This document shows positions 4,328 through 37,542 of a stretch of 64,000 bases of DNA, in pieces. Below the pieces are notes generated by a model, which saw only the letters and a list, made by a program, of their open reading frames with translations, did not search any database and had not been told where the DNA came from. Position numbers and translations under genes: made by a program. The stretch comes from Astropecten irregularis (taxonomy: Eukaryota > Echinodermata > Asteroidea > Paxillosida > Astropectinidae), in NCBI GenBank assembly GCA_963971285.1, contig OZ020248.1, positions 14,694,001 to 14,758,000 on the forward strand. Direction: 5' to 3'. The stretch's first letter is position 1. Each line of letters starts with the position of its first letter.

Positions 4328-4587
4328 TTAATACTGTTTGCCTCCAGGGGTTGCGTACTTGCAGTCTGTGGTCTGCACTGTCTCGATTGGCTTGTTGTAG
4401 AACTTGTCGAAGTTGTTGGACTTGAGCCACTGCAGAACGTCGGCTTGAAACCGGGAGCGGAACTCGACGGGGTCCCGGGCCAGCACGAAGAGGGTGAAGC
4501 GTTTGGAGTCGGTGACGATGGAGTACTGGTACTGGGGTTCGGTGTTCCCTTGTTTGGTCTCCTTGGGGCCTAGCTGTAACACCCAGT
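4328..4587 (-). CDS. Lipocalin A exon 4 (C-terminal, stop TAA)
   Basis: A pyrimidine-rich acceptor ends in CAACAG. The exon codes for the last barrel strands and the C-terminal helix (EFRSRFQADVLQWLK) and ends in TDCKYATPGGKQY before TAA. The C-terminal tail is longer than in lipocalin B. Confidence 0.92.
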
Positions 4588-7500
4588 CTGTTGAAAGAAG
4601 ACAAGACATGCTCACTTACACACACCGTGTTGGATCAAGACTTGATATTTGGATAGGAGGTTGCCATAATGATGTCATGCAAGCATTCTACACTCAACCT
4701 TGCTTCCAATTCCGTCAAGATGCAACACAGAATTATTCATCATTCCACTATACATGCTATAGGTTTCTTCGTCCCACTCTCCAAAGGCCAGTCCCACAAA
4801 AAATTTACTAGGCCTAAGCTCTCCAAAGTAAAATCCATTAAAGGAAAGGGTAACAGGTGAGTGGGCGTGGTTTATATCGCCTCACTTCGCCCAATAGGCT
4901 TGCAATACTTGTTGGGGTTGTCGGTGGCAGCAGTGGGATCCCATGTGCAATGGCTTCGTCATGACTGTGGCCCAATCACTTTGTTTCGTTTTGTGGGCCT
5001 CAAATGGCGGTAGCAAAATAGGTTTCGCTGAGCCTTGCCTTAAGCTTGGTTTGGTAAAGACCAATGTCATAAGGAACTCTTGTTCTTGTCTAGAGCACCC
5101 TTTGGGGTCACACCAATCAAACTATCGTCACATTAGTATCACATACACTATATAAGTACTGGCAAACTTAGGGCCTTTTTCAAAATAGTGGCTTTGGGCT
5201 GTTGTAGATTCTCTGGTTTGAAAAGGAAAACAGAGCCTCAGCTTCAATGAAAAACCGCAACCTATATTTTTTAGGGTATAGTGACAGAGGCAAAGCTGGA
5301 GCCTGAGCCTGAGCCGAGCTTTGAGAAAGGCCCCAGCTCATAAATTTATCGGAACTATCACATAGACATTCTCCTTTATTCGTTCCCCAAATTCCTCCTG
5401 CTTATAAAAACAAGCCTTCTTTAAATCTCAAAGAGCTGTAAGAAACTTACATTCTCCAGGGACAGGAGCGACCGGGAATTTCACCTCCAGCTTTCCGGGG
5501 TCACTCTGGTTGACCACGTAGGCGTAGCCCCTGATGTCATTCAGTTTGCCCGTCGGACTACCCACCGTGTTGGCGTTGTAGACGGAGATTGTCTTGTTGG
5601 GATTCAGGGCATCTTGTTAGTGAGAAAGAGGACACCACAAACTATGAAATAAAGATTTCCTGTAATGGGGAATATTATTCTTTTTTATTCATTCTAACTA
5701 GCATTGCTAATTAAAGGGAGCATATAGGATTTGCAAGGCCTCAAAGCAAACATTATTGAGTTTCAGACAGAAAATTGACTCAACAGTTCGTAAACAGTGC
5801 AAACAGTCGCCATGGGAAATCTTGGTTCATCAGATGCTGGGGTTTTTCAAGCAAATCAAGATTTTGTGTCTTTTCCAAAGATCGTTCGTCCGAACGATTT
5901 TTGGAACACACATAAAGTAAACTATTCTTCATGTTTTATAAGAAAAATCGAGTCGGGTTTTCGCTAGTTTCTCGTGACTCAGATGTCAGATTGGGCTCAA
6001 ATTTCCACAGGTTTATTATTTCAGGTACATGTTTGATCAGACAAAGTATGAGTGCTGCTCTGTTACCTTTACCAATCATGTATTGTACCTTTAAAGAGTC
6101 TGGCTAAAGCCTTTTTAAAACTATTTTTTGGTTTTCAAATTAATACAATCGTGACTGGGTATTATGTATTATTGCTTGGAGTTAGGAGGGCCTGACGCGT
6201 TTCGATCCTAGCAGGGTCTTTCTCAAAAGCTAAATACGTATTATTGTTGTTGTTGTGGGTTTTTTTTTCCATTTCATTTCAATGCACATTTGTTTCCATA
6301 CCAACTATTAAGATATAGGAAAGAGTAAACTACAGCATGTACATAATTTAAGTGAGTTAAATTAAAAAAAAAATATGATTATGATTATACTAATTAAAAA
6401 GCCGTATCCTCTTTGAGTGATCTCCCATGTACCGTTCCCAGGATGCAGCATTGCTGCGTGTATCATCATGAAATGATCCCTGGGGTATGGCGGTTTTTGC
6501 ATGCTTTTATGGCTTCTGACTGCTTAACGAACAAAGATAATTGACTATTGGGGTCACCACCAACGTAAGGCTGGATGGCTCAGTTGGTAGAGCGCCTGTA
6601 CGATATTCAGGAGGTCGCCGGTTCGAATCTCGCTCCAGTCAATTCTTCTTTGTTTAATGACTTTTAAAGAAAAATATGATTCGAAAATAATATGTTGGTA
6701 CGGAGTCGTCTTCTGGAAGCCTATATGGCTTGTGGTGAGATGCCTTGGGTGGACAAACACAGTTATCAAACTTGATAGACAACTCACAATGAATGCTTAC
6801 ATTAATGATGTTTGTAAAGCCACCTCTTTTGCACTCCACAAAATTGGGTCAATCCGATCATTCTTGACAAACAATGCCACTGAGAGACTTGTACAAGCAC
6901 ATGTAATGTCTCGAATTGATTTTTGTAATAGTGTATTATATGGTCTCCCTGATAAACAAATTGAAAAGCTTCAACGGATTCAAAATTCAGCAGCCAGATT
7001 AGTAACACGCACTGGAAAAAGGGAACATATACCTCCAGTCTTGCGTAAACTGCATTGGCTTCCGGTTAAAAAGCGTATTGACTACAAAATACTTTCACTT
7101 TCATTTTTAAGTTTGCAAGGGTTTGGTCCAATTTATCATCAGTCATTGGTTCAAAAATACAATCCTACAAGAAACCTCCGGTCCTCATCCAAGTCTCAAT
7201 TGGTGTGCCCCCATACTTCAACAAAATCATATGGGTGTAGAGTTTTTTCAGCAGCAGCAGCACAACTCTGGAACACTATTCCAGAGAACATCAAGCAAGC
7301 TGGTACTGTTGAACAGTTTAAGGCGCTCCTTAAAACACATCTATTCTTAAATTGATTGTTTGGTTTATTCTGATATTTTTTACTGTGTTTATGTGAATCT
7401 TCTAGATGTCCATGTTTATTTATTTCTTCCTTCTCTTTCTTACAAGCGCTTAGAGACATGTTTGATTGTGATTTGCGCTATATAAAAGTGGTTTATTATT

Positions 7501-11553: not shown

Positions 11554-12101
11554 TAGAGCTGCTAAGTACAAAAATGTGCTTAGCACAAAAATGTCTTGCC
11601 CAATAAAACAATTACCACCGTAAACAATTTCATTTGATATTCATGGTCAGCGAACAACAGCCAAAGAACAATCACATGTTATACACAACATATGGACATT
11701 TGGTTGTTAACCCGTTTTTATTAAATTCGTGAAATAACCACAAGGGAAACTGACTGAGTTATTTTAAGTCATTGAAAAGTGAACAAAGAAAAATTGACTG
11801 GAGCGGGATTCGAACCGGCGACCTCCTGAATACCGTACATGCGCTCTACCGGTGTGTGCGTGGTTTCATGGCTTCTGACTGCCAAACGAACAAGGATAGT
11901 TGACTATTGGGGTCACCACCAACATAGGGCTGGATGGCTCAGTTGGTAGAGCGCCTGTACGGTATTCAGGAGGTCGCCGGTTCGAATCCCGCTCCAGTCA
12001 ATTTTTCTTTGTTCACTTTTCAATGACCGTTTTTATTAAGACAGAAATGTCATTGCTAAGCAATTTTTTGTGCTAAGCAGCTCTATGAAATTGGCCCCTG
12101 G
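11554..12101. mobile_element. M3 element interrupted by the double SINE
   Basis: Ends GGGGCCAATTT and AAATTGGCCCC. Interior landmarks TTCATGGTCAGCGAACAAC and GACAGAAATGTCAT recur in every M3 copy. Confidence 0.8.
11725..12026 (+). mobile_element. Double, inverted tRNA-derived SINE with 13-bp duplication
   Basis: A minus-oriented tRNA-like part (truncated at its A box, 11790-11852) faces a complete plus-oriented one (11933-12001). Both are followed by the same CAATTTTTCTTTGTTC tail, so the ends form an inverted repeat. The whole unit is flanked by CCGTTTTTATTAA at 11712-11724 and 12027-12039. It is inserted into an M3 element. Confidence 0.8.
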
Positions 12102-14601: not shown

Positions 14602-14834
14602 CTAATCTCTGGTCGTGGGATAGCCACAGTTGGTTGCCTGCAGCAGCGGCCTGGGCTGCTTCAGGAATCCCTGGTACCCGTTCTCGTCCAGAAACTTCAA
14701 GACCTCCTCCTTGTACTTGTCCAAGAATGAGATGGGGTTCCTGGCCAGGACGTAGAGGGCGCGATCACCGCTGCTGGTCACCACCGAATACTGGTACTTG
14801 CCATCAATGACGGGACCCAGTTTAATGACGAGAT
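14602..14834 (-). CDS. Lipocalin B exon 4 (stop TAG)
   Basis: The acceptor TTTCCTAG is followed by YLVIKLGP; the exon ends ATNCGYPTTRD before TAG. No clear AATAAA was found in the next 100 bases. Confidence 0.9.
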
Positions 14835-17275
14835 CTAGGAAAGAAACGGAACCACGTTGGGTCAAAATAATGTCACTGGCTGATTGTTGCCGTACGTGCA
14901 TGAAACTGAAGATCTTCGGGGCCTGTGCTTCGCCAGCCCTGCCTGGGCTAAGGATCATGGTTACCCGTGTCCTTGAGCAAGACACTTTGCGATGTTTTGA
15001 TCTCTCCACCGAGGAGAAAACAACTTAGTGCCTTCGAAGGCAGAAGTTGATTGTTGTGTTTCTACATGGCATCTTTTGGGGACTGTGTTTAGCCTATACT
15101 CACCAGACAACTGAAACAGTCTAGGAAAGGAATATGCCTAAAATGAAATAATAATTGCAGGATATTTCTTTTTCTCAACTGTTTTCTTTGTCATGTTAAG
15201 ATGTTGATGACTAGCCTTGATATCATTGGCCTAGCATTCATTATTTTTTCCATTTGAAAGTTATCGTTGCAAATATTATACGACTATTCTAAACACAAGT
15301 ATATGCTTCGGCAAGTTTGGACTCTGATCCTGTGGATGAACTATATAAGACCAAGGGAAGACAGTGGGGTATGTGAGTGCTCTGCCATGTGTTTCCATGC
15401 TACATTGGTTCCTCGATGGATGCGAACTTACAATCGCCTTCCACGGGCACACCTTCTAGGACCACCTTGAGTCGACCTGGCGCGGATAGATTAGGGATGT
15501 AAGCAAAGCCGGCTATGTCACGCCGTTTGCCCTCTGGCCAACCAACTCGACCGGCATTGTACACGGAAACAAACGTCTGGTTGATCATCTTGTCTTGAAG
15601 AAGAAGATGAGAGCAAAAAGAAGCATTTTTGTAAAAGAACAAGCAATATTTCCGTGTGACATCTCTGACTTTCGAAACAATTTGGTTTTAAGGTTAATGT
15701 GCGCTTTTCTAAACGACTGACGCTTAAAGGTACAGTACAGGATATTGGTAACGTACCAAAACGGAAATGTTCACAGATTTACGTATAACTTCCAGGATAT
15801 ACAAATGGTATACTGGTAGAAACATACCATTGAAATATTTCCGCCTGAAATGCTGTATTTATCCAGAAATTGGTCACTACATAGACCGAAAACAGTTTTG
15901 ATCTCGGGGTAAGATCAAACCATTCTTCATGTTTTATAAGAAAAACGAGTCGGGTTTTCGCTATTTTCTCGTGACTCAGATGTTCGATTGAGCTCAAATT
16001 TTTACAGGTTTATTATTTCATGTACATGTTTGATCAGACAGAGTATGAGTGCTGTCCTGTGACCTTTACCAATCATGTATTGTTCCTTTAAGATGTCTTT
16101 AAAAAAAAGATGGCGGGCGCTTACGTGAACTTGACGGTCACATGGTATTGACGTCAGGTTGGTCGTGCAGCTTTACACAAAAGAATACAAGCGAGGATCG
16201 CCACCTTAAGTATACTTACAATCGGCGGTAGTGCAGACAGAATCCAGGTCCATATTGACAATTTTCGTCCATCCATTCTCATATGGCTGCGAAAAAAACG
16301 CGTCAAAGAAAAAACAGGGTTTTTTTTCAGAATTGGTTTTCAGAATTGATTACCGTATTGCAGACTTTATGTCAAGCACTGCTGGCCTGGCTTGCAAGTT
16401 ATGCCTCAACTTGTGTCATTTATTGTTGTCCCCCTGCCAGTGGCGGATCTAGCTTTTTGGTAAGGGGGGTTTACCCGGAGTGAAGTTTTGTAGCCAGGCA
16501 CTGTGAGGGCGTGGTGGGGGAGGTGTGGGGTCAACCCCCCCCCCCCCCCCCCCGCTTTGGTAGGGAGCTTTTTCAATTTGACATTTGAATTTTTTTTTTT
16601 TTTTTGAAAAAAAAAGGGAATCCAAGGGGGGGGGTGGTTTAAACCCCTTAACCCCCCCATAGATCCGCCCACTGCCTGCGTTTCCCTTTCACAATACTTT
16701 TTCTGCTGTTATTTTACCTAAAGCTTAGCGCTTACTCTAAAATCGAGAATACATGATATGTGATTTTTATGTACAAGACGAGTAATAATTAACTGCTGCA
16801 AAGTGCTCACCAGCCAAAATAATTACATGTACCTGAAATTTATCAAATGCTTGGAGTTAGAAGGCTAGACGTGTCAGGCTTTCCTAACTCTAAGTATTGT
16901 ATGTTTAATAGTCACCAATATTTATTTAGTTTTCTTTTAATCCGAGGGAATTACGAACGTAGCTAGCATGAAGAGTTAATCTGTCATAAGATTAGTCGGT
17001 TTTATTTAATTGTCATCAACTTTGTACCAGCTTTTTTTTCTGTAGTTTTGGAAACCAAATTTTGACGGAGAAAATAAGATTATGGTAACTGTTTTTTCAC
17101 AGTTTCAAAAGTGTTTTATGATTCAAGCAAGTTATACGAGGCTCGACATTTTGTTTACCTGATACCACCGTCCCACGTACGCCTTGAGATCGAGCTTGTC
17201 AACGGTCGGAATTTCCCCGCGGCACACGGTGAACGTAGCCAAAACGAGGAACACCACAATACGCACACGGGTCAT
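14602..17275 (-). CDS. Lipocalin B (apolipoprotein D-like), 4 coding exons, 192 aa
   Basis: Exons 17275-17159, 16286-16220, 15593-15432 and 14834-14602 join into 193 codons with phases 0, 1, 1, the same as lipocalin A. Residues 1-20 form a signal peptide (IVVFLVLATFTVC). GRWYQ ends exon 1 at 35-39. KYQYSVVT near 128-135 and LARNP near 145-149 are the second and third conserved lipocalin regions. C57 and C185 match the conserved barrel-to-tail disulfide. N66QT and N96LS are glycosylation sequons. The C-terminal helix (FLDKYKEEVLKFLDENG) aligns with that of lipocalin A, but the tail after the last cysteine is shorter. The two proteins are clearly homologous but well diverged, so the tandem duplication is not recent. 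It is a secreted carrier; the ligand is unknown. Confidence 0.92.
15432..15593 (-). CDS. Lipocalin B exon 3
   Basis: 162 bases. The acceptor at CTTCAAG keeps phase 1; the later AG at ACAAG would break the frame. It contains NQTFVSVYNA, parallel to NKTISVYNA in lipocalin A. Confidence 0.88.
15724..16091 (+). mobile_element. M4 element in lipocalin B intron 2
   Basis: TTAA ends. The left half shares CACAGATTTACGTATAACTT and TTCCGCCTGAAATG with M1; the right half (TTCTCGTGACTCAGATG, TTTGATCAGACA) is its own, so M4 and M1 are related families. Confidence 0.82.
16220..16286 (-). CDS. Lipocalin B exon 2
   Basis: 67 bases after a T-rich acceptor ending CGCAG. It codes for PYENGWTKIVNMD then LDSVCTTAD with conserved C57, and has a GTAAGT donor. 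Confidence 0.88.
16439..16673. mobile_element. Inverted-repeat element with C/G runs
   Basis: Ends CAGTGGCGGATCTA and ATAGATCCGCCCACTG, CCTGC on both sides. Lies in intron 1 of lipocalin B. Confidence 0.6.
17159..17275 (-). CDS. Lipocalin B exon 1
   Basis: 39 codons from the only suitable ATG, ending TATCAG before a GTAAAC donor, phase 0. An A/T-rich TTTTTATTATC stretch lies about 55 bases upstream on the minus strand and could serve as a weak TATA element. Confidence 0.9.
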
Positions 17276-32040: not shown

Positions 32041-32262
32041 TTAAAGGTAGTATCATACCAAAACAGAAAATGTTCACAGATTTACGTATAACTTACAGGG
32101 TATGAAGATGGGTGGTGGTAGAAACATACCGTTTAAATCTTTCCGCCTAGGACTTTCATTTGGGACTGAAATTTTCACAAATGACTGTTACTGTATCCTC
32201 CTTGATATTTTAGCCTATGAATCTTCTTTGACAAAACTACCAAAGTATGATATTACCTTTAA
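32041..32262 (+). mobile_element. M1 copy with internal deletion
   Basis: Both TTAA ends are kept, but the centre (about 140 bases) is missing. A right-half fragment of another copy follows at 32650-32812. Confidence 0.8.
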
Positions 32263-33536
32263 CTCAGTGTTTTTACTCGAGTGTGGAATCTTCACCGTGA
32301 AAGTGCAGTATTATAGGACCAGCCGGTGCGATGTGAGTTGTAATGCACACAAAATCATTGTGGACTTTAAAAAAAGAAGAGATCCTTCACAAACTGCAGT
32401 GTTGAAGAAATGCAGATTTGAAACATAATGATGGCATGGTAAGAGATTAGTGGTAGTTTGGATATGAGCTGTACTACAGTGAGAAGTGAACTATGACCTT
32501 CAACCTGGCCCATGTTTCTTATTGTCTTTTCTTTTTAAATCATCTTCCCCATGTACACATGCGCACTGTTGGCTGTGGTTAGTAGAACGTTTGGCGTTAG
32601 TGACAAGCACTTACGGAGCTCCACGAGTGCCATATTGCGCTTAATATACAGACTTAAGAAAAACTGTGGCTGTTTTTCACTGTTTTCTCAAACAGTGGGG
32701 CAACGTATGGGACTGAAATGTTCACAGATGACTGTTACTGTATCTGTCTTGGTATTTCTGCCCATGAATCTGTATTTCTTCTATAAAAAACAAAGTATGA
32801 TACTACCTTTAAACATGCAATGGACGTCTTACTAAAACCCAGTTAAGCAAGGGTACAGTACATCCTATGGTAGAGATTTTCCCCTTGATCTGTTATGTAT
32901 CCTCTTTGAAACTCTTGGTGAATAGTTCAATACCTTGAGCCTAGAATCTATTTCCCTTTTAATAAGGAGAGCGCCAATTCCTACCTTTCCTTGTGTCTGT
33001 TTGCTAGTTTGTTTGTTCTGTTGGGTGACTACTCCACTGAGGCATGATATTTCCACCGCTCTCTATATTATTAATCTGCTTATCATGTCTAATATCATAA
33101 TATCTCTGGAACTCATTTACCCTGTGGTGGTCTGGTTTCCTTTGGGAAGATCGTCTATTTCTATCTCCCTGTACACGGAGCATAATCCTTCTTGTGTAGG
33201 TTACCTTGGGTCGGCTTCCAGACCTACGGAAACATACTTATCCCCGCAAGGTACAAACAGAATATTGATCACAGTGTTTCGAAGTAAACTTGACAATAAA
33301 ATGAAGAGAACTAGACATTTAGGTGTTCGTGGACGAACACTGAGCTGTTCCGACTTGTTTAATCATCAATTTCAAAGCAGCATGCATTATGATAGAGGAT
33401 CTAACAAAGCTACTATGTACGAATGTCAGATACAATGCGTGCATGCAAATCAGTATGCAACGCGGCACATCAGCCAATCAGATCTGACGGATGATTTTGA
33501 TTGGTCAATTTCGCGTGTCCGCGCGGCAGCAGCTGT

Positions 33537-36329: not shown

Positions 36330-36910
36330 TCCGGAAACTTTAGAAGTAGTTAAGAACATCATTGACATTGAATAATATGGCTGTGTGATCAATTAGCAGG
36401 CCTTGAATTTGGTTCTGAAAGGGCCAAGGCCACTTTTCCATTGCAAGGGGCACTTCCATTGGAAAATCATAATGTCTATGGAAACATTTGAAGGGGGCAT
36501 GAAGGCCAAGAACCAGGGCAATGAAGGCCATGGCCTCCGTGGTCTCCGTTAAATTCAAGGCTTGAATTAGATACAATGTCTGTAAATTTATATATAGGCA
36601 GGCCTGAATGAGTTTTCCCAACTGATAAAATATATATTCTTCTACCATAATCTAAAAGACATTAATTCAAGTCTACTGATGAAGTTTTAATGAGCGACCC
36701 AACCAGTATAAATAAAAACCCCAAAAACTGAAATCATTTCATAAACAGCTTCGTGTTGGCTCGAGCGACTTCTGTGCGTCTTTATACGTCTCTGTTTGAC
36801 ATGGGGAAAGACAAAGAAAAAGTGATGGTGTCAGTTTTCCATCGATCCTATTCAAAACCAATGTAATAGAGTGAGTGTATGTGAGTGGTTTCCGCATGAT
36901 TTCTGGCTGG

Positions 36911-36990
36911 CAAGGGGCTGGATAGCTCAGTTGGTAGAGCACCAGTATGATATTCTAGGGGTTGCAGGTTCAAATCCTGCTCCAGTCAAT
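36911..36990 (+). mobile_element. tRNA-like sequence (SINE head or tRNA pseudogene)
   Basis: A box TAGCTCAGTTGG, perfect T arm GCAGGTTCAAATCCTGC, and 7-base acceptor ends that pair (GGCTGGA/TCCAGTC). The anticodon stem has mismatches, so a working tRNA is unlikely. It has the same CAATTTT tail start as the SINEs at 6.5 and 11.9 kb. Confidence 0.6.
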
Positions 36991-37022: not shown

Positions 37023-37219
37023 TCCTGATGCTCAAACAATAATAAAGCCTGTCTTCTAAATACTATGACCAATGTGGACTCAATATGTCAATCAATTCAG
37101 TGCCAACAATGGTTCAGGATGCTCCTGATGCTCAACCAATAATAAAGCCTGTCTTCTAAATACTATGACCAATGTGGACTCAATCTGTCAATCAATTCAG
37201 TGCCAACAATGGTTCAGGA
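37023..37219. repeat. 100-bp tandem duplication
   Basis: CCTGATGCTCAA...GGTTCAGGA occurs twice with a 100-base period and only two or three differences, just past the MsrB1 3' end. Confidence 0.9.
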
Positions 37220-37353: not shown

Positions 37354-37425
37354 GATCAATGGATACAGTCCGGCGTTTCACATTTTTTCTTCTTTCCCAG
37401 TCGTGAAGGTTGTGGTCTTACCTTT

Positions 37426-37542
37426 CTAAACTTCCTTAAACTGAAGGGATGATGAGAATATTGAGAATCGTGAGTCACCCGCACCAGGGCCGTCATTCAG
37501 GTATTCATGGCCCAGATCGTTACCACACTTAGCACATGAAAC
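37426..37542 (-). CDS. MSRB1: MsrB1-like exon 3 (second CxxC, RFSIF, stop TAG)
   Basis: The acceptor TTGCAG is followed by [15 protein letters not shown]; the exon ends FKEV before TAG. A GTAAGA donor-like site sits three bases past the stop, so a 3' UTR intron is possible. Confidence 0.92.

Follow-up and report, generated by a model that had tools for sequence, protein, structure and literature searches.

The locus studied here raises the question of how an otherwise intact MsrB1 gene comes to encode serine (Ser) at the catalytic position, where selenocysteine (Sec) or cysteine (Cys) would be required, and of what its product could still do. The window, i.e. the whole stretch of 64,000 nucleotides that was analyzed (C11:14694001-14758000), carries on its minus strand a three-exon MsrB1-like gene with a spliced frame of 103 amino acids (Table 1). 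A sequence-only reading of this DNA had described three cleanly splicing exons, intact MsrB1 landmarks and a TCA codon between RF and IF. All of these were seen in the spliced minus-strand frame: both introns are of the GT-AG type (GTGAGG..ACAG and GTGAGT..GCAG), both zinc-site CxxC pairs are kept together with HSSPWP, GHE.LNDGP, RF-x-IFSSSL and FSSSLQF, and residue 92, flanked by RF and IF, is encoded by TCA.

Table 1. Features of the Ser MsrB1 gene and of its counterpart with a Sec codon (Sec copy). Positions are those of the window unless a contig is named; L006 is the second-locus sequence used for comparison with the window copy.
Feature	Position	Strand	Remarks
MsrB1-like exon 1 (coding from ATG)	39584-39533	minus	donor GTGAGG
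MsrB1-like exon 2 (coding; first CxxC zinc pair and HSSPWPSF)	37949-37807	minus	acceptor ACGTTAACAG, donor GTGAGT
MsrB1-like exon 3 (second CxxC pair)	37542-37429, with stop to 37426	minus	acceptor ATTCTTGCAG
Catalytic codon TCA (Ser, residue 92)	37464-37462	minus	TGA at the second locus
Stop TAG of the Ser MsrB1 gene	37428-37426	minus	
Vestige of the exon 3 donor, AAAG/GT	37420-37425	minus	now behind the stop; intact AAAG/GTAAGT in the Sec copy
Homology blocks flanking the missing stretch	36738-36841 and 36662-36727	minus	colinear
10 bp replacing 1,411 bp of the Sec copy (L006 2514-3924)	36728-36737	minus	blastn; SECIS within the 1,411 bp
Sec-copy MsrB1 exon 3	C11:24337826-24337939	minus	74% identity to window exon 3; one TGA inside

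The predicted protein matched the Pfam domain SelR with 72 bits (cut-off, 24.9). In a phmmer search of the PDB, in which 21 sequences matched, the best two were the MsrB1 chains 3mao (E = 2.8e-40) and 2kv1 (E = 6.1e-40), which we take to be MsrB1 of human and mouse, and MsrB3 came next (E = 1.8e-14). Such similarity to MsrB1 cannot be due to chance, and the SelR domain and the closer match to MsrB1 than to MsrB3 place the gene in the MsrB1 family by descent. It is a multi-exon gene with GT-AG introns, and its intron and flanking sequence is common to both loci, so it is not a processed copy. Nor does it look like a pseudogene, as the three exons contain no stop, frameshift or broken splice site. 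The only cysteines of the protein (residues 22, 25, 68 and 71) all lie in the CxxC pairs, and outside the zinc site there is neither a catalytic thiol nor a reserve or resolving Cys; the Sec or Cys nucleophile expected of a methionine-R-sulfoxide reductase is replaced by Ser. Exon 1 encodes no Cys, and 2kv1 reads SFCSFFGG at the same place, its Cys being presumably the resolving Cys4. The absence of a resolving Cys was given supporting weight only; some MsrBs may work without one.

A second MsrB1 locus, for which the sequence-only reading had advised a search, is present on the same contig at a distance of 9.6 Mb. When the assembly (475.7 Mb in 168 contigs) was searched with the 103-residue protein, five matches were obtained, namely the three window exons, a bacterial-type MsrB on contig C71, and exon 3 of the Sec copy. 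The sole TGA of this exon sits exactly at the catalytic residue, and the exon reads on in frame to its intact donor. Exons 1 and 2 of the Sec copy were not among the assembly matches by protein, DNA or SelR family searches, of which the DNA search may overlook a copy at 75% identity. The Sec-copy homology stops at a gap of 200 N (L006 5565-5764; C11:24338564-24338763), approximately where exon 2 is expected to start, and no convincing exon 1 or 2 was found in the 14 kb past the gap; the gap probably explains why these exons are missing. A weak exon 1 match (L009 2842-2804, E 0.012, 7/13 residues) was taken as chance. According to a passage of PMC2901347, human MsrB1 has four exons and the mammalian MsrB1 SECIS element lies in the 3' UTR; by analogy, the Sec copy would be expected to have either an additional exon or an extended 3' UTR, exon 3 being the exon recovered for it.

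The Rfam model SECIS_1 matched the Sec copy at L006 2949-2882, on the correct (minus) strand and 1.9 kb downstream of exon 3, with 25.3 bits, which lies below the gathering cut-off of 35 bits. The E-value was 0.22 across all 4227 families with a 9.9-kb query, and approximately 5e-5 for this family alone by our own arithmetic. In a scan of L006 for SECIS cores, 2940-2894 ranked second of 34 overall and first on the minus strand. The 108-nt stretch that contains the element (L006 2866-2973) gave one match only in the genome, and it folded only somewhat better than shuffled sequences (z -1.40; 14 of 200 did as well). In a genome-wide SECIS_1 scan, with 150 of 13,076 candidates scored, two of the six matches listed were above the cut-off (43.6 and 42.3 bits), and the Sec-copy element was not among these six. 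The 42.3-bit match is found on C17, some 3 kb downstream of a GPx exon that bears a TGA. On C28, a match of 24.9 bits was located 1.6 kb downstream of a GPx that likewise contains a TGA, indicating that a SECIS_1 score near 25 bits can belong to a real element in this genome. Because about three chance matches per genome are expected at this score (E 2.8-3.3), and because the model also gave sub-cut-off matches in 4 of 14 prokaryote control genomes, we base the case for the Sec-copy element on its position and strand.

At the window copy, there was neither an in-frame TGA nor a SECIS_1 match, whereas the second locus has both; no SECIS_1 match at E<=10 was obtained in the 64-kb window or in 50 kb of other loci. 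Strand-matched blastn aligned the two loci in colinear blocks across 2,884 bp of the window (37789-34906, against L006 5554-161), or 2,443 bp when the last block, a CAAT-rich repeat, is left aside, with 67% identity in the aligned stretch around the copies. Repeats yielded many additional off-diagonal matches between the loci. Within the colinear series, the stretch of the Sec copy that bears the SECIS element is replaced by a few base pairs (Table 1). Of the two flanking blocks, that at 36662-36727 is short (66 bp, 73%). Repeats in other parts of the window match L006 3477-3852 and the greater part of 2658-2863, so that the unique part of the missing stretch is smaller than its full length. 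Furthermore, the window copy has its TAG 4 nt ahead of the old donor, followed by AAAG/GTAAGA. Sec-containing SelR is listed for six invertebrates in a section of PMC3473315. Because animal MsrB1 commonly carries Sec, we infer that the window copy lost the SECIS-bearing stretch rather than never having had it.

Several other elements were observed in the window. tRNA-like SINEs are present on the plus strand at 6569-6641, 11928-12000 and 36916-36988. The last of these is also found at the colinear place in the Sec locus (L006 4379-4464) and, being common to both loci, is probably older than the duplication. A tandem duplication of 100 bp (two copies, 97% matches) lies just downstream of the Ser gene at 37023-37219, and its unit is a single copy in the alignment at the Sec locus. 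Lipocalin-like exons at 4331-4615 and 14605-15024, both on the minus strand, scored 28.9 and 13.6 bits with Lipocalin_10 (cut-off 27, the second being below it) and are perhaps a local duplicate pair. An open frame of 254 amino acids at 6591-7352 on the plus strand resembles by eye the end of a LINE reverse transcriptase; it gave no Pfam match.

We looked for traces of a SECIS element that once served, or still serves, the Ser copy. A weak SECIS-like fold just after the stop (37352-37306) lies on the right strand and has 8 pairs and an ATGA..AAA..TGA core; when both strands of the window were scanned, it ranked 9th among 190. However, it had no SECIS_1 support in the Rfam search, the corresponding stretch of the Sec copy preserves it poorly (-2.8 kcal/mol), and the 76-nt stretch did not fold better than shuffled sequences (z +0.43; 131 of 200 did as well). 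We give almost no credence to a past or present SECIS function of this fold. When the Sec-copy SECIS was aligned locally to the 3' region in the window, a score of 29 was obtained, which was equalled by 6 of 200 shuffles; the alignment adjoins a tRNA-like SINE, off the colinear place, and was rejected.

The anatomy of the two copies also bears on whether the TCA codon is real. As TCA and TGA differ by one base, a base-call or assembly error could in principle have disguised the TGA of an ordinary Sec MsrB1. However, the window contains no SECIS_1 match at E<=10, the SECIS stretch is absent between colinear blocks, the stop stands ahead of the old donor, and the Sec form is supplied by the other locus; a TGA at this codon without a SECIS element would remove the last 12 residues. 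Because TCA, the stop before the donor and the missing SECIS stretch are linked in the window copy, a lone error is highly improbable. Among the explanations that the sequence-only reading had offered, loss of catalysis, here in a duplicate, fits the three linked features. Another explanation is an allele, with TGA or a Cys codon at the window copy in some individuals, and the comparison does rest on one assembly. However, a TGA form without a SECIS element would be truncated, and the window copy has long diverged from the Sec copy, which makes a polymorphism of this kind very unlikely.

The change from Sec to Ser would have occurred in a genome that still seems to have a Sec machinery. The tRNA-Sec model gave 75.4 bits on C20 (cut-off 47); three weaker C24 matches and 5 of 14 control genomes also passed this cut-off, and the C20 match scores far above those on C24. 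In all, six matches of the model with 46.5-49 bits lie within 8 kb at C24:1346774-1354374, and these are probably other long-armed tRNAs, e.g. a tRNA-Ser array. In the GPx family search, one in-frame TGA was present in five of the eight matches, and in all four that were translated (L024-L027) the TGA is at the catalytic site. Two TGA-bearing GPx matches were seen on opposite strands, about 2 kb apart, at C28:13043704-13046393. Judging from tRNA-Sec and the TGA-bearing GPx genes, selenoproteins still seem to be made in this animal, and the change to Ser would thus be local.

The SelR family search (10 candidates) gave eight matches, on C71, in three exons on C1, in two window exons, on C8 and on C16. 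Exon 3 of the Sec copy escaped it, so a search of this kind fails to pick up single exons, and the genome may contain more MsrB exons. The three C1 exons belong to a Cys-type MsrB (RYCINSSSLKF) with Cys at the catalytic site; the single TGA recorded inside this match is intronic, before the exon, and was rejected as a Sec codon. The C8 match (23.0 bits, below the cut-off of 24.9) is Yippee-like by eye, and the C16 match (17.7 bits, below the cut-off) showed no MsrB motif; both were set aside. The C71 match was also set aside, as the contig looks bacterial: in C71:79000-86000 (L007), an MsrB-MsrA pair stands beside an ileS-like frame (names given by eye). Another contig of bacterial look in this animal assembly, C131, has a COX1 match without stops at 32162-33484, and both contigs are possibly from a symbiont or a contaminant. 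A partial COX1 match with seven TGA at C25:9951047-9952018, on a 14-Mb contig, is probably a nuclear copy of mitochondrial DNA. The mitochondrial COX1 itself, on C168, can be read with AAA as Asn at conserved Asn positions; this code is of the echinoderm type, although some other animals use it too, and the animal is probably an echinoderm. A search for the GFP family, as a mark of amphioxus, gave no match, from which absence does not follow. No MsrB1 relatives were confirmed among 46 and 7 pattern stretches from prokaryote and viral collections, respectively.

To compare the two copies, 36 codons of exon 3 were used, with one gapped codon and the Sec codon left out. They differ by 19 nucleotides (5, 3 and 11 by codon position). 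The NG86 method gave dN 0.103 and dS 0.670 (dN/dS 0.15), LWL85 gave dN 0.101 and dS 0.611, and YN00 gave dN 0.137 and dS 0.320 (dN/dS 0.43). When the changes were polarized by mammalian MsrB1, with the catalytic position excluded, two were assigned to the window copy and one to the Sec copy; given the six that could not be placed, the window copy has kept between 29 and 35 of 37 residues. Exon 3 of the window copy has probably been constrained for part of its separate history, which is clear by NG86 and less so by YN00, and this constraint may be mostly older than the change to Ser.

These values are also relevant to the explanation that the window copy is a functionless, dying duplicate, whose SECIS element and catalysis were lost recently and which is still intact only because of the short time elapsed. 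In neutral simulations of one branch (20,000 runs each), at least 31 of 37 residues were kept in 35% of runs at 0.1 substitutions per site, which speaks for this explanation, and half of the YN00 dS is 0.16. On the other hand, the same number was kept in only 0.8% of runs at 0.2 per site and in none at 0.33, which is half of the NG86 dS. Moreover, the exons, the splice sites of both introns, and the zinc and pocket motifs are all intact, against 67% identity in their surroundings. We regard a dying duplicate as a rather doubtful explanation.

We consider it likely that the window gene is a diverged duplicate of selenoprotein MsrB1 that lost its SECIS element, exchanged Sec for Ser, and is most likely a non-reducing paralogue. 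In this scheme, an old segmental duplication would have given two MsrB1 genes in an animal, probably an echinoderm, still making selenoproteins. One copy would have retained the Sec codon, the exon 3 donor and the downstream SECIS element, and the window copy would have come to lack the SECIS-bearing stretch, to stop before the old donor and to read TCA instead of TGA. With these three features, its full length could be translated without selenium, as an ordinary protein with Ser. The sequence and anatomy of the two copies are those observed in the assembly; the direction of change would have been from Sec to Ser.

Ser cannot form a selenenyl or sulfenyl intermediate. The Ser protein should be unable to reduce methionine-R-sulfoxide, because its catalytic site offers neither Sec nor Cys and a resolving Cys is missing as well. 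Part of PMC10298544 describes Cys forms of MsrB1 as 100-1000 times less active than the Sec form, and PMC7475093 reports that, after 15 min with MetSO, an MsrB3 whose catalytic Cys126 had been replaced by Ala showed no oxidation of its resolving cysteines. The fold appears to tolerate Ser at the catalytic site, as the MsrB1 chain 3mao carries Ser there and its structure was nonetheless solved. A retained non-enzymatic role of the Ser copy is possible. As the zinc site and the substrate-pocket motifs are intact, the most likely role, if one exists, would be that of a pseudoenzyme that binds methionine-R-sulfoxide proteins or MsrB1 partners beside the Sec enzyme, which is the least certain step of the scheme. 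More specifically, and only tentatively, a conserved and expressed MsrB1 pseudoenzyme might bind methionine-R-sulfoxide or MsrB1 partners (e.g. on MICAL-oxidised actin) without reducing them, and so protect or read a mark which its Sec counterpart removes.

When a selenoprotein gene loses Sec, the usual description is of a replacement by Cys, which preserves the chemistry. The window copy resembles animal MsrB1 (SelR/SelX) in its SelR domain, zinc CxxC pairs, HSSPWP, GHE.LNDGP and RF-x-IFSSSL, and differs in having Ser for Sec, no SECIS element found, no Cys beyond the zinc site, and a C-terminus shortened by the stop ahead of the old donor. It shares the domain family of the Cys-type MsrB2 and MsrB3, but in these Cys occupies the position of its Ser. 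In evolutionary terms, the nearest parallel is the origin of SPS1 from SPS2, in which, according to part of PMC4561486, a Sec gene was duplicated, and one copy lost its SECIS element, changed UGA to a codon for neither Sec nor Cys, and was kept with a function. However, SPS1 belongs to a different enzyme family, and the residues named in that part of PMC4561486 are Arg, Thr and Gly, not Ser. Furthermore, the retention of SPS1 is backed there by conservation and knockout-rescue, whereas the window copy is known from its sequence. We found no report of a natural Ser-MsrB1 in the open-licence PMC literature, from which we make no claim of absence. A Ser copy in a Sec-making genome that keeps the Sec form looks like a natural, catalytically dead version of a much-studied repair enzyme. 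Should it prove conserved, it would parallel SPS as a case in which duplication has set a Sec enzyme apart from a paralogue without Sec, and one could then examine whether a 'reader' of methionine sulfoxide exists.
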